NCBI GenBank assembly: GCA_025526935.1
Contig: JAHLKD010000002.1
Coordinates: 1 to 64,000, forward strand
DNA from: Cladochytrium replicatum
Taxonomy: Eukaryota; Chytridiomycota; Chytridiomycetes; Cladochytriales; Cladochytriaceae
DNA: 64,000 bases
Direction of reading: 5' to 3'
Position numbers and translations under genes: made by a program. Of this stretch, positions 2,712-53,616 are shown one piece after another. Position 1 is the stretch's first letter. Every line of letters starts with the position of its first letter. Below the pieces are notes generated by a model, which saw only the letters and a list, made by a program, of their open reading frames with translations, was not told where the DNA came from and did no database searches.

Positions 2712-3789
2712 GACATCTATCACTTCTGGTGATACATTCCGACAAATAATGCCTGCGAACACAATACCATTCATGTCGATGACATACTACATTTTTCCAC
2801 AATTCCAAACGCATATCATCGGTTTCAGACCGATTTGCAGACTCGTTCACAGTGGGCAGTACTTCGAAGGCGAAATGGATTCTGAAGATGGAGTTATTGC
2901 AGACAACGGATGGAGATTTCCTTAACAATGAATGCCATTGTACGTAAAGAAGATTCTCGAAGAAGCGAATTTATGGGGTACCAACATCAAACCGACCAAA
3001 ACACTGATATAGAAATCAAACATCTTTGAAGAGACCACACCAGCACTGTCTGATGCCGACGCAACACAATTTCGATCAATGCTAATGAAGATATTATAGG
3101 TGGCGACTAAGACACGACCGGATATTTCATACGCAGTCAATATTTTGGCACAACATCAGAGTGATCCTCGACAGTCAGAAGCAAGAGCTCTCAATCATTA
3201 CAACAATATTTACTTGGTACTTGGGATTACGGTTTACACTATACACAGACTGGTATCACATCTCCGATGCTAAGACCGAACGGTATCTAACGTTTGATTC
3301 GGCTAACACCCCACAAGGGTATGCTGATGCAGACGGGCGGGGGATGCAGATAGATACTCATGAACTGGTTATGTGGTAGTGTTTGCTAATGCAGCAATCA
3401 GTCGGCAGTCGATTCGACAACAGACTATTGCAGCCTCGTCATCGGAGGCCGAACTGTATGCATTGAAAGAACTATCGCGGGAGATGACGTGGATGAAAAA
3501 TCTTATGACGGGTATCGAAATTACGTCGTTCAATCTGCTCCGTTTATGGCAAGATAATCAATCCACCGAATCCATCGCAAACAATCTGTTCAACAACAAA
3601 CGGACCAAACACATGGACGTTCGCGAGAGATTTGTGAATCTCCAAGTTGAACAGAAACATCAGGAGTTACACCATATGGATACTTCTGATATGATCGCGG
3701 ACATCTTAACTAAACCTCTTGGAAGTAAATTATACCTTAAGCATAAGGGCTCGTTGGGGCTAGTCAGTCAGTCGTTACTTAATACACTT
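2712..3789 (+). pseudogene. Degenerate copia pol (RT tail and RNase H)
   Basis: A second copy of the 1-658 family, continuing further 5'. An HVDDIL reverse-transcriptase motif is readable near 2775-2795, followed by RT C-terminal and RNase H segments (DSANTPQGYADAD, IAASSSEAELYALKEL, DMIADILTKPL). Many stops and frame changes break it, for example around 2895, 3030, 3060 and 3330. It is interrupted at 3790 by the nested LTR element and resumes at 6146. Confidence 0.85.
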
Positions 3790-42356: not shown

Positions 42357-43066
42357 AATGGCCCGTCACTGGCCACGCGTTGGCTTTGGGGAAATTTTCA
42401 TATCCCTGTTACCATTTTCCATACATTGATTCATTTTTAAGTATTTGCCACTCGGCCACGCTGGCGTGAATAGCTTGCCGTCAAGACACAGCTTGAGGGG
42501 TCACATTCGCCCAAAATTTCACGGCAGGTGTTAACTAATTCTTATGTGAGAATGATACGGGTTGATTGAGATCAATTGAAAGAATTAGTCCTTCCGCTTG
42601 ACTGGCAGTTAGGTTCGAAAACTATACGGGGCCAAGCGAGCAATAATATGCCCTCTCCACAAGATTTCGTCTGCACCCACCGATGCAAGAAACCAACTCG
42701 AACGTACTCCGAGAGGAGTAAAAGCGTCAAGCCGTCCAACGCATTTAGTCCTCCCAAGGAACTTTGCTCAACTCATAAAGACTGATTTGCCATGCCATTA
42801 CTTCGGGATTTGTCCAATTCTCTAAAATTGTTCGATAATTTATCCACTTTCAACCATGATTTTTGAACGCACCGCTTTATTGATTCCTCCCAAGTACTTG
42901 AGCTCCACGTGTTTTCCTCAGCCGTGTGTTGGAAAAGAAAGACTCCTTCTTTCTGCTCTGCAAGATTGATCGGTTGCACCTTAAATACGCGGCTTGGTAT
43001 GGATACCCGCTAAATTGTTTCACCCATCAAAGCCACAGCTACCTCACCAACACAAACACACCAACA
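42357..43066. other. Intergenic region
   Basis: 3' flank of Atos and 5' flank of the bestrophin-like gene. No ORF, repeat or RNA gene that I can support. Confidence 0.5.
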
Positions 43067-44841
43067 ATGTCAACCTCTGAATCAACTCCCTTGCTGAATG
43101 GTGTGACCAACGTGAACACCCGCTCGTACCTGGAGTACCAGCGACAGGAGAAACTGGAAAAGCGTCGGATCACATTTTTCACCCACAGGAACTATAGGCC
43201 GTGGTATGATTTGCTTGTAGTTCGCGGAAGGTATGCTTGTGTCTGTGCATTGATGAAAGCAAGGGCTTGAATGATCGATATTTAGCACCATCCCCGCTGT
43301 CGTGCTTCCTTTCTGCGTCCTCTTTGTCTGGGCAACAATTGTTACCACCATCTACAAGACCACCGATTTGTTAAAATGGGTCCCGAACTCAACCATGTTC
43401 ATCACGGTTCGTTACAATTCTACGAACAAGAATCTTTCTCGGCTAATGACGTCGAATCCGTTAGATCATGGGTGTTGCATTCGGCTACCTCTTGGTCTTC
43501 CGGTGAGAGTATTGCCAGATCTACTTTCCCTGTGCGCTAATCAGCTCTTTACGGTGTTTTAAGAACCAACACTGCGTGTTAGTTAACTTCCTCTTGAGCG
43601 CAATAGAGGCATGCTTACATATTAAATCCAGACGATCGCTTCTGGGAAGGTCGCCGTCTCTGGGCACAGCTCGTTGTCCAAATTCGCAACTTTGCACGTC
43701 TCATATGGTAAGCTTCAGGCTTATTTTAAGTTTCCAATTGATGACACTATTAATCCATTTCGTCCATTAAGGCTTCACGTCGAACCGGTGGATGGAAGCA
43801 AGATCTCCAAGGAAGACTTTGAGTACAAGAAGGGTGCTATGAACTTGCTCCTTGCGTTCTCCTCTGCCTGCAAGCACTATCTCCGCAATGAACCTGGATG
43901 GGAGTTCGATGGTAGATAAAATGTGAATGGATCCCTGGATTTTCTCATAATTTGCAGATTTGTGGCCTTACTTGGAGCACATTCAGGTGAGAATTTAGAC
44001 TTGTTTCAAAGCGGCACAATTCGAATTCCAAAGCAGGATTTCTCTCCCGAGAACCCTAACCCTCCCAAATCCGGCACAATCAGTGTTCCCCTAGAGATCT
44101 CCTTCCACCTTGGTACCTACGTTGCGTAAGTTGCAACATTGCTTTATTTGGATATGAACTTATCAGGTCGTTAGTGAGATGAAGGCGAAGAACCTGATTG
44201 ACGGCTCTGCTCAGGGAAGCATGAATGGATGTGTTTCTGGAATGGTTGAAACCTTCAGCTACTTTGAGCGAATCAAGACTCCCATCCCTATCGCTTACGG
44301 AACATTCATCAAGCAGGCTCTGTTCTTGTACACGCTCAGCTTGCCTTTCCAGGTGTTGCCAGTTTTGGGCTTGGTCACAATTCCTGTCGTTTCATTGGGT
44401 GGTGCGGTCCTTGTTGCAATGGAAGCGATTGCCGGCGAAATTGAGGTAAGCCTTTCATAGCTATCTCATTACGTTTTGATGCTAACTGCGTCAATAGAAC
44501 CCCTTCGGTATGTTACTTAACCAGCAGCTGCTTTGATGAGAGTTTGATCATTGGTTGCTTTGCCCCGCTCCATGCTATCTCTTCCATAGGGTAAGGTTTA
44601 GCTGACCTTTTCTCGTCTGCTTGAAAAAATTCTGTCGTGTGTTTATAGAACCGACGCGAACGACCTTCCCATTGATGACTACATTGACAGCATCAAGGCA
44701 GAGCTCAGCCGCATAATGAACCGTCGCATGAAACTGTCAGTAAACCGCGAGTGGGGAAAGGCCGTCGATTTGGACGGTTTTGAGCTTCGCTACGAAGATG
44801 CGGTTGCTTCTCCGACCACCCTCACTGCCCACTCCTACTAA
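43067..44841 (+). CDS. Bestrophin/UPF0187 family anion channel
   Basis: Twelve exons are proposed: 43067-43230, 43286-43406, 43465-43502, 43564-43577, 43632-43707, 43772-43911, 43958-43986, 44037-44125, 44175-44445, 44498-44507, 44590 and 44649-44841. They sum to 1146 nt and 381 residues. Family motifs: FFTHRNYRPWYDLLVVRGSTIPAV, GVAFGYLLVFRTNTAYDRFWEGRRLWAQL (the bestrophin NxAYxRWWEGR block), CSGMVETFSYFERIKTPIPIAY and ENPFGTDANDLPID. It should be a pentameric chloride/anion channel. Three exons are tiny: 14, 10 and 1 nt. The single-base exon (G44590) is needed to read PFGTD across two canonical introns of 82 and 58 nt. An AATAAA lies at 45002. Confidence 0.92.
44590..44590 (+). other. Proposed 1-nt exon of the bestrophin gene
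   Basis: CCATAG ends intron 10 (44508-44589), one G follows, and GTAAGG begins intron 11 (44591-44648, ending TTATAG). Without this base the conserved PFGTDAND motif and the remaining 63 residues are out of frame. Confidence 0.7.
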
Positions 44842-46114
44842 ATTAGATGCTGCGTTTTATCAAGCTGAGTCATGGGGAAGTTGAATCGGAAATACTTTTG
44901 CGGATGCGTTACTTTTTGGAAAGGAAATTCCTTTCGTTCTTAGAACCTCGTTGATCTTTTAGAATTCTCTATCATGCCTTTTGGTCGAGAGACTCATTCA
45001 CAATAAATCTCTCAATGCTTGTGGCTTGTGATCAGTTTGTGTATGCATAAATGGCTGTTGATCCAAGGAAGCAAAGTGAAATAAACGACCTAGTTAGGGA
45101 GGTAGGAACAACAGGCGCAAAGATGAATCAGCTCAAATAAAGGTATTGGAAAAGTACCTCTTGTCCACAGATTACCTTGAAACAGTACACGCGTTTGATC
45201 GCGAAACTCACCGCAACAACATATCAGAGGAGCAGACCACAAATGAAGATAGAAACGCGGAGCGTTTAAGTGAAATCCAGGTGGATATATCCATTCATTT
45301 AGTGGCATTATCTGATCTAAGCACTCCTCCTTAAGGAAAGCTGTTTGCTGGCTTTCAATGAAGGGGATCGAGAAACGTTCTTTGCGCTATGGGATGAGCA
45401 CTTCCCACCATCTGTCCGTCTGAGTGATTCCGTGTACTCAAAGCTAGAGTTCACATTAAGCATCTATTTGCTGTGTTTCCAGTCCACAGTTACGTCGATC
45501 AGAGAATGGCAAAGGCATGAACTTAACCGGAATTATGCTCCTGATCCCCACTCATGCGTCTTTTTCATAACCAGAAGTGGGATTCTGCGAAAGCTATGGA
45601 TTCGTTTAAGGCGTTCTTGGAGACACGAGGGCGGATCTCTGCAAGACCACGCAGTTCCTGCCGTTCTACGCTCTTCCCTATGTGCATAATCCAATGGATC
45701 ATCCTACCTTTCGTGACGTGTTTACGGATGGTTGGGTGATGGATGTCGAAGATCATTTGTCCCATTTTCTTTCTAGCGCCTTGCATTCTATCGAGTTATG
45801 GAATGAACCTAAATTTTGATGATAATACGTATTGGCAGGATCTTCGGCCTGTGCAGGACGCTCTGCGTAAGTAACGATTGCTCCACATGGATCGTCACAT
45901 GCTGAGCTCATAGGCAGGAAGCGAGAAGCAATTAATCGTGATGAAACGGAAATGCCAAGAGCTTGAGCTTCGTGAGCGAGGCATAATGCGCAAACACCAC
46001 ATTTCCCCAATTGAAAGTTAATTCAGCTGCGCTGATCACTACTGATCTAGAATGATTACCAAAACATCTTGTCTGTGCCCAGGAGTTGGCGCATGCGCTC
46101 GGAGCATCCATTAG

Positions 46115-46553
46115 TGTAGAATTTCGTCGTAGGCAGGTAAGATCAGATAAGAGGTACTTGTTCGATATATTGGAAGCTTAAGACTCACACCTTTTATAGG
46201 TTCTCCCATTCCCAACAAAGCCTCCCTTAATTTGTCCTTGCCACGTCAGCAGCGGCGCTCTCCTTCCTCCTTTGGTAAGTCCCCTTCAAGTTTGCTGGTG
46301 ATCCGGAATTTTCTGGAACGCTGGCTTTTGAAGTTTTCGTCGAAGAACATGAAGCCGAAATAGAAACAGAAATAAAACTTTTGGAAAACAACAAAGCTAG
46401 CGTCGTGGGTTAAATCACAAGCCATTCAACATCATGTTGCAAGTTCGATTCTGAGGATCAACAATAATCCTGTTATTATCCTCAGCCGAACTTTTTCTTT
46501 TTGAAAGTAAAAACAAAGAAGGAAAACTTTTATGAACGAAACAACACTCAACA
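46115..46553 (-). repeat. 3' LTR of the copia element
   Basis: 439-bp LTR. Sequence appears identical to 50939-51377. Confidence 0.95.
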
Positions 46554-51377: not shown

Positions 51378-53616
51378 ATTAGCGGCGAGAAGGTGGTACC
51401 TACAAATCAGGTGCGATCATTAGTTAAGATGAGATTTTGCAGATATCCCTACAGTACCTCTCAACCGTATGTGATAAGCTAGCATTCCTCAAACGGGCTC
51501 CACACATTGTAAGTGACTGTGGACTCGCTTCTTTGGTTGTGATGAATTTTCAACAATCTTATTCGGTGGACTATAGGAATTTGCGGTGAACCCGAGAACC
51601 AAAACAATTCAAGGTAGAGCTTCTCCCAAAGAACATCTACATTCATTAAGTATCAAATAAGAAGTTCACTCTCTGTAGCCAAGCCGAGTCCCAACTCCGC
51701 GCCGCTACTGCAGCTTCCTCCAGAACAGCATCTGCAACCTATTTCTCACAGCTCCGCACCACCAACCATTCATGGATTCCTCCAAAGACCTGGAAGTGCA
51801 TTTGCGAGATCAAACAGTGAATCTGACAAAGTGGCCTTGTCTGTTTCGTCGCTGCTAGATTATGCAAAGTTGAGGAAGGATGTTGCAACTAGAGCAAAGA
51901 AAAGACCCGGCATCGTTCTCAGGGCACTCAGAAAGGTAAGCTTTAAGATACAATGTTTCGTAGCGAGTATCAACATTTGCTCATGATTTCTAGCTCATCT
52001 TGATGTCCAGAAGATCCGCGAACAGCTATCGCATTATCCGTAAGTTTGCCACGCAGGATATCCTGCAGCGTGCTCAGGTGCTTTTAGGCGTGCCAAGAAG
52101 ATTTGAACCGTCCAATTGATTTAGTTTTCGCAGACATCCGTAGCGGCAAGGCTCCTGGAGGATGGAGACGATGCAACCAGAGTCGAGCTTGCTTGCTTTC
52201 TGAATGCCTTATCATTGGGTGCAGACGGTCGCGAGTATATATCTGTCGGAGGAAATCAAGAGACATACGACAACTTGGTCATTGCAATGGTGCGGTTGCT
52301 GCAAAATGAGGGCAAGTGTACCCCGATGATTCGAGAAAATATCTTGGGAGCTTTTCAGAAATTGAGCCTCCGGTAAGCAGAAAGCAAAACCAAAACGTAC
52401 GCCATGTCCTGAAAACAGCATTCACCAGGAGGAGAGTTCAATCGATCTTGAACTCAATTAACTTCCTGGACTACCTTCATGGGTTGCTCGAGAACACCGA
52501 AGGGCTATCGGAGAGCACTATCGAGTATGCAACTGCCCTTTTAATGAACCTTTGCTTGAGGACAGAGGGAAGGCGACAGTGCCTAACCATTAAGTCGAGA
52601 ACACTTGCCATACTTAATGAGCTGATGGAGCACGAAAGCATCCAGGTATCATAGTTTAGCTTCCACCCATTACGCTGCCTCATTGACAAAACCATAATGG
52701 AGATTAAAACATACGTGAATGGAGCACTTTATAGCCTATTTTCAGAACCAGTCTTCAGGGAGGACGCTCGGGAGCTAGGAATGGAGGACATGCTTGACTA
52801 TATGAGGAACAATAGCAGCGATGGGCTTGGGAAACAGCTTGAATATGTACTTGAGGAACTCAATACCCTGCCTCACAAAGCAAAAGGATCCCATCTTGAT
52901 GAAATATCCGAGGAGGGGGAAGAGGCTGATCAAGATGCGGACGACGAAGTGAGCTTTACCCAGAGGCCTTCCTGAGACGAAACTGACCACATGAGCAGTC
53001 GGATGTAGCTCAAGCCATTGGTGCCGATGAGTTTTATTATGAGCAAGGCGAAGAACTTGGAGGCCTAGAACTCCTTAAAGCGGTGTATCTTACAGAGAAT
53101 TCTAACACAAAACAATCAGACGAGATCCAATCTTCTTCAATGGTCAGTGATCTGCAGTTTTTGGAAACTTCATGTTGCTGGGACGACAAGATCCTTTAGC
53201 CACGAGCAAATAGAGACCAAAGAGGTCTTTGTTGGCACACCACGCACAACCATTGGAAGTGGAGAATTTCGTGTGCCCTATAGAGCATCGGGACAGAATA
53301 CCGCTGGCCAAACGGCTGATCATGGCAATCCCCTCACGAAGATGACAGCTCTCCGCACCTTCCCGATATCGTCAAAAAAGAGATTCCCCATCCTCCGGAG
53401 AAATTTGCCAGAAAGAAACCTAAGCAGGCTCCAGTAGTGCTCGACGCCGGGTTGCAACAGGAGCTTGATACTGCATTTCGCACCCATGAACGAATTGCAT
53501 GGACCCCTGTTGGAACATCACTGTCTGGTCTTCCAGCAGAAGTTAAAGCGGCTGCTGCTGCAGAACCAGCAAAAAGTGTAAGAAAATCCAGCAGCTCTAT
53601 CCACAGCAAAGAGTAG

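Follow-up and report, generated by a model that had tools for sequence, protein, structure and literature searches.

A single guanine, G44590, is very probably a real and constitutive single-nucleotide exon of a bestrophin-like gene in the chytrid Cladochytrium replicatum (Chytridiomycota, Cladochytriales). The gene lies on the forward strand at 43067..44841 of the window, by which we mean the whole stretch of 64,000 nucleotides that was analysed (positions 1 to 64,000 of contig JAHLKD010000002.1, in an assembly of 50.5 Mb and 198 contigs). The sequence itself shows four things that agree with this reading: the splice signals on both sides of the G, the uniqueness of the solution that uses them, the conservation of the arrangement in a diverged paralog, and selection on the reading frame downstream. 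A preliminary description had proposed the exon from the letters of the window. Re-reading the sequence confirmed its observation, with coordinates, letters and intron lengths (82 and 58 nt) all correct, and the sequence comparisons below support its interpretation.

The gene has 12 coding exons. This model was re-derived exactly and reproduces the total claimed for it: a coding sequence of 1146 nt without internal stop that encodes 381 aa including NPFGTDANDLPID, after which the last 63 residues are recovered when G44590 is included. The proposed bestrophin-like identity was borne out by a match to the Pfam profile PF25539 (Bestrophin_2; E 1.3e-61, residues 40-337, 209.1 bits against a curated cut-off of 27), and residues 53-337 align with solved bestrophin homologs. 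These matches place this chloride-channel-like gene among bestrophins of the bacterial/fungal type. The PF01062 (Bestrophin) profile was uninformative, as it matched nothing in the C. replicatum genome and nothing in 14 control genomes either.

The site is compact, and all its features are on the + strand. Intron 9 (44446..44497, 52 nt) is followed by exon 10 (44498..44507), a 10-nt micro-exon, AACCCCTTCG, that encodes N-P-F and the first base of the following glycine codon and directly precedes the 1-nt exon. Intron 10 (44508..44589, 82 nt, GTATGT...CCATAG) interrupts that codon in phase 1, exon 11 (44590..44590) is the G that provides the middle base of the codon (GGA) in NPFGTD, and intron 11 (44591..44648, 58 nt, GTAAGG...TTATAG) interrupts the same codon in phase 2. 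Exon 12 (44649..44841, 193 nt) begins with the last base of the glycine codon and continues with 63 codons and the stop. With slashes for splice boundaries, the letters are G44507/GT44508 ... AG44589/G44590/GT44591 ... AG44648/A44649. The predicted spliced junction reads CCCCTTCGGAACCGACGC if G44590 is included, CCCCTTCGAACCGACGC if it is skipped, and CCCCTTCGGTATAACCGACGC if splicing uses the donor at 44512 that the public annotation adopts. The cDNA predicted by the single-nucleotide-exon model is TTCGGAACC, versus TTCGGTATAACC for the annotated model. Left unsplit, the interval between exons 10 and 12 would form a composite intron of 141 nt (151 nt in the paralog); the other nine introns of the gene measure 46-64 nt (48-64 nt in the paralog).

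The gene contains another very short exon. Exon 4 (43564..43577) is a 14-nt micro-exon, AACCAACACTGCGT, whose length and letters are identical in the paralog and whose encoded residues are present in the public C. replicatum protein (P0001). Intron 8 (44126-44174) ends in the acceptor GTCGTTAG, and a CAG lies a few bases upstream of it; P0001 agrees with the use of GTCGTTAG, and GGTCGTTAG is kept in the paralog while the upstream CAG is not.

Splicing around the site was enumerated in two ways. With one intron or two of the GT/GC-AG kind allowed, none shorter than 40 nt, the window gave 2070 combinations, 9 of them in frame and 1 yielding NPFGTDAND. The paralog gave 366 combinations, among which 2 were in frame, 1 yielded NPFGTDAND, and no single GT/GC-AG intron restored the frame. 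The second enumeration took ordered pairs of GT-AG cuts, linear and nested alike. For the window these were 1044 linear and 1431 nested pairs, 2475 altogether; for the paralog they were 163 and 196, or 359. The 18 in-frame outcomes in the window comprised 2 giving NPFGTDAND, which are the same two introns removed in either order, 2 giving NPFGMVRTDAND, and 14 giving NPFGITDAND. All 14 of the last group use the donor at 44512; 5 of them are nested and 2 pass through a zero-length ratchet at 44595/44596 (in either order). In the paralog 4 outcomes were in frame (2 giving NPFGTDAND, 2 giving NPFGMIRTDAND), none nested, and all 4 use the internal AG/G/GT. The claim that only the lone G restores the motif thus holds as follows: among the solutions enumerated, its inclusion is the sole GT-AG one that gives NPFGTDAND, in the window and in the paralog.

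The base is required for the frame. When G44590 is skipped, both copies acquire a shifted tail and a stop; when intron 11 is retained, both stop immediately after NPFG; and when intron 10 is retained, an early stop follows. AGGGT occurs once per composite intron, in the window and in the paralog. The zero-length junction that had been suggested as an alternative at G44590 fails on these letters: in AGGGT a base separates the AG from the GT, and its omission leads to a frameshift and a stop. A zero-length AG/GT (AAG/GTTTAG) does occur at 44595/44596, five bases inside intron 11, and it restores the frame only in combination with the donor at 44512.

The second copy of the gene, on contig C31 (C31:384327-386124), is 81% identical to the first over the whole gene. 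Mapped through the alignment, all 12 of its exons have the same lengths as those of the window gene, the 1-nt and 10-nt exons included, and the letters of the 10-nt exon are identical. The coding sequences share 1038 of 1146 bases (90.6%) and specify the same residue in 368 of 382 codons (stop included), with dN 0.018 and dS 0.479. The introns have diverged much further: 299 of 556 columns in their interiors are identical (~54%). Intron 9 is 51 nt long in the C31 copy, intron 10 is 85 nt (GTATGA...TTGCAG), and intron 11 is 65 nt (GTGAGC...TTCCAG). At the site, CCATAG/G/GTAAGG in the window corresponds to TTGCAG/G/GTGAGC in the paralog, and the paralog's G is aligned to G44590. In each copy a single base separates the AG from the GT that would serve as acceptor and donor in the RNA, and this state is conserved between homologous genes at dS 0.48, with the qualification that the two copies belong to a single assembly and have a common ancestry and so are two witnesses of one origin. 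Where the window has the GT of the annotated donor, at 44512, the paralog has GA. Intron 10 matches its counterpart at 57 of 86 columns, which is not exceptional among the introns of the gene, and we claim no enhancer there.

At this divergence we consider the C31 copy a paralog and not an allele. The flanking DNA also aligns (locus L023 on C31, ~76%, covering about 43018-46116 and 51428-51938 of the window), indicating that the duplication took in more than the gene. Used as a DNA query, 44446-44648 matched only the window and the C31 copy, with no repeated intron family at that sensitivity. Bestrophin loci lie in similar segments, about 76-84% identical, on the contig pairs C2/C31 and C21/C16 (the window with L023, L028 with L029, and L009/L011 with L010/L012). 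These pairs suggest a large-scale duplication or a hybrid or diverged-haplotype genome.

In this model, exon 12 is read in the frame that the 1-nt exon supplies. Of its 28 differences from the paralog, 22 fall at third codon positions in this frame (p 1.2e-6), and it has dN 0.0456 and dS 0.8542, compared with dN 0.0124 and dS 0.4268 upstream of the site. The third-position bias and the low dN/dS indicate that the downstream frame is selected as protein, a result that applies equally to the single-nucleotide-exon model and the annotated model since both enter the same frame.

Splice-signal strength was scored with donor and acceptor matrices built from the 18 undisputed introns of the gene pair, which are nine homologous pairs. 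The donors at 44508 and 44591 score 7.0 and 8.4, and the annotated donor at 44512 scores 1.5; these values are reached by 2.3%, 0.6% and 31%, respectively, of the GTs on the + strand of the window. The donor at 44591 is the best-scoring GT of 44496-44640, and 44508 ranks second in the region. Among the 18 accepted donors, the lowest leave-one-out score is 1.7, just above the 1.5 of 44512, so the weakness of 44512 does not by itself exclude it. At 44589 the acceptor is mediocre, with a score of 3.2 that 20% of window AGs attain; this lies within the range of the other acceptors of the gene pair (-1.1 to 9.8, leave-one-out), and the paralog counterpart scores 7.7. Candidate branch points TTGAT lie ~42 and 53 nt before the acceptor of intron 10, and ~43 and 54 nt before it in the paralog. 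Matches to YTRAY are otherwise scattered, and in intron 11 none was found at matching distances in both copies.

How often such a site arises by chance was assessed with 20,000 dinucleotide shuffles per composite intron, in which the first 6 and last 3 bases were fixed. Any AG/N/GT appeared in 16-17% of shuffles, and a candidate 1-nt exon alone is therefore weak evidence. AG/G/GT with at least 45 nt on each side appeared in 1.8% (window) and 1.9% (paralog), frequencies that are not independent of each other. The extended AG/G/GTRAG, a pattern chosen after the data had been seen, appeared in 0.055% and 0.035%, and these two values are likewise not independent. The strength of the case comes instead from the paralog's aligned G between diverged introns and from the enumeration.

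The motif at the site is well defined in the family. Of 8000 scored candidates in a homolog search, 5574 were homologs, and the best 120 of these were examined. One motif-spacing pattern fits 115 of the 120. The exceptions are P0001, the only one with a residue added before the D; P0043, which ends inside the motif; P0055, which reads NPFGYVENSDL and is seemingly one residue longer; and P0076 and P0078, which are without the motif. Besides P0001, no protein among these best 120 of 5574 exceeds 50% identity. Among solved sequences, the motif is ungapped in the four alignments displayed of 22 matched (NPFGTDCN in one, DPFGTAANDLP in three); exon 9 alone gave only weak matches to solved structures. 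In the C. replicatum genome, 10 other bestrophin loci carry the glycine codon uninterrupted (12 pattern hits, two of them duplicated by overlapping loci). One of the ten, G000:C61:194119-194463, is a bestrophin fragment interrupted by a stop and may be a decayed copy. The equivalent NPFG-acidic segment of animal BEST1 belongs to the calcium clasp, so that an added residue or a shifted frame at NPFG would be predicted to damage the channel.

P0076 and P0078, both unnamed proteins of source 'lgn', break off as EIENVSC..., which resembles a retained intron right after EIEN; introns may be especially frequent at NPFG in the bestrophin family. In a further paralog on contig C41 (L024, G000:C41:67000-71000, minus strand), the motif at ~2772-3005 of the reverse complement needs three introns. 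The sole solution found with up to three GT-AG introns leaves CTTT (4 nt) and TGGATACGAT (10 nt) as exons and yields EIENPFGYDWNDLP; this solution comes from a single copy with no second copy for comparison. With the C41 gene included, the exon sizes in the family are 1, 4, 10, 10 and 14 nt.

The main competitor is the public annotation itself. P0001 (382 aa) lacks the 1-nt exon, reads NPFGITDAND and otherwise equals the window protein, and NPFGITDAND, with its added Ile, is the exact product of the donor at 44512 (44512..44513, GTTACT). The annotation would be right if one 137-nt intron, 44512-44648, were removed, or if the same product were reached stepwise. This intron accounts for the deposited protein and is the only in-frame single GT-AG solution in the window (three single GC-AG ones also exist), and the zero-length ratchet at 44595/44596 and five nested cuts arrive at NPFGITDAND there as well. 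We nevertheless regard it as very unlikely. Its donor score is reached by nearly a third of window GTs, although it falls only just below that of the weakest accepted donor, its GT is GA in the paralog, where no single intron works, and its product inserts a residue against the spacing pattern that 115 of the best 120 homologs follow, with P0001 the sole carrier of a residue before the D. It also leaves the conserved AG/G/GTRAG unexplained. We consider this GT not to be used.

Three further explanations are less probable again. A single intron of ~140 nt with a non-canonical end is highly improbable: with free dinucleotides, four single cuts give NPFGTDAND exactly (GT-TA, TA-AG, AT-GA or TG-AA), none of them canonical or, to our knowledge, a known spliceosomal class, and in the paralog the GT-TA intron would end in CA instead. 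Such an intron would be more than twice as long as the other nine introns of the gene, and the conserved AG/G/GTRAG would be a coincidence. Loss of one G at the edge of a single ordinary intron, by assembly error or in a frameshifted pseudogene, would be the simplest route to a one-base defect, but the same state is found on two separate contigs, and dN/dS is low before and after the site alike, so that neither copy is pseudogene-like; we give this explanation very little credence. Two abutting fungal introns also resemble stwintrons, which are described in fungi, yet only 5 of the 1431 nested cuts in the window are in frame, all 5 giving NPFGITDAND and none NPFGTDAND, and none of the 196 nested cuts in the paralog is in frame. 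In the enumerated range (GT-AG, at least 40 nt), both introns are complete and linear, which sets the site apart from the stwintron class. A zero-length ratchet point at G44590 would have to dispense with the base kept between AG and GT and would shift the frame, and the AG/GT at 44595/44596 leads only to the annotated product. A stwintron or ratchet yielding NPFGTDAND is accordingly given almost no probability. Ribosomal frameshifting or RNA editing would be needless, as ordinary splice sites are present.

For the single-nucleotide exon, we infer a simple mechanism. Introns 10 and 11 would be U2-type introns of an ordinary kind, 82 and 58 nt long; as both are short and each has a donor and an acceptor of its own, intron definition would suffice for their removal. 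They are probably excised sequentially, since two spliceosomes presumably could not occupy the sites flanking one base together. With intron 10 removed first, the joined TTCGG would be the exonic sequence in front of the donor GTAAGG; with intron 11 removed first, GAACC would be the exonic sequence behind the acceptor CCATAG. Both orders would produce TTC GGA ACC GAC, that is F-G-T-D. Recursive splicing, which the preliminary description had listed as an alternative, is thus no rival to the 1-nt exon and instead a likely route to it, with both excision orders ending in the same mRNA. The donor of intron 11 is the stronger one in both copies (8.4 vs 7.0 in the window, 8.4 vs 5.9 in the paralog), at most a slight hint at the order.

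Two origins are conceivable for this arrangement. A base lost from an exon edge may have been compensated by a cryptic AG/G/GT, as in the scenario of Nelson and Syed (PMC12940212), or two introns may have come to flank one G of a GG pair. The ten loci with an unbroken codon suggest that introns 10 and 11 were both gained in this branch, with loss elsewhere also possible.

Several consequences follow if the reading is true. The smallest possible exon would be placed in an early-diverging fungal phylum, and a duplicated pair would have kept it over dS ~0.48, so that the spliceosome there would handle it reliably. The inserted Ile in a conserved channel motif would be a concrete, correctable annotation error. 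The gene would also offer a fungal test case for the removal of two introns one base apart.

Single-nucleotide exons are documented in plants, where the preliminary description called them known but very rare. For Arabidopsis APC11, cDNA and reporter constructs established a 1-nt exon (Guo and Liu 2015, PMC4674806). Like the proposed chytrid exon, it is constitutive, required for the frame and wrong in annotation, and sequential splicing by intron definition was proposed for it; unlike the chytrid exon, it is an A, in a plant, within a composite of 422 nt. The same authors argued against simultaneous splicing and cited the 9-nt exon of potato invertase, where the second intron goes first. In land plants, the 1-nt microexons of VPS55 and APC11 have RT-PCR and RNA-seq support, are absent from annotations, as in the chytrid, and are kept by some gene copies and lacking in others (PMC8831610); the conserved GTRAGT donors of VPS55 resemble the chytrid site. 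Stwintrons, as in a Lipomyces reticulon-like gene, are two short back-to-back U2 introns spliced consecutively, in which the outer intron has its donor, its acceptor or its branch point split by the inner one (PMC7138796); in the chytrid gene neither intron is interrupted, and an exonic base stays between them. The term single-nucleotide exon is also used for a reported placozoan mitochondrial case and in fungal mitochondrial genome papers. In the openly licensed PubMed Central literature, we found no nuclear single-nucleotide exon in fungi outside Fusarium, and its titles and abstract openings yielded no report of chytrid microexons.

The closest parallel is fungal. Fusarium belongs to another phylum, the Ascomycota. 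Its CYP621A gene contains a 1-nt exon supported by 20 orthologs and 18 RNA-seq reads, and only one gene-model transcript is said to be right there (Nelson and Syed 2026, PMC12940212); a 1-nt exon in a fungus is thus no longer unreported. CYP621A and the chytrid gene have much in common: each is a fungal nuclear gene with a conserved motif whose glycine codon has as its middle base a G inside AGGGT. The motif is PKG in CYP621A versus NPFG in the chytrid, and the composite is 139 nt in F. graminearum versus 141 nt in the window. CYP621A is a P450, from another gene family, and the chytrid case is one species with two paralogs, described from DNA. The shared AGGGT and glycine position provide a testable suggestion on how 1-nt exons arise. 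Tentatively, and with more doubt than confidence, the two cases could be read by analogy as convergent, with the GG of glycine codons as a preferred site and 1-nt exons as a recurrent, systematically missed class in intron-rich fungi; a phase-1 and a phase-2 intron would then end up one base apart, for example as the frozen intermediate of a one-base intron shift. On that view C. replicatum, with its bestrophin exons of 4, 10 and 14 nt, may contain many 1-nt exons. The chytrid exon is a rare further example, not a new kind, of an exon class known from a few plant genes and one Fusarium gene group.
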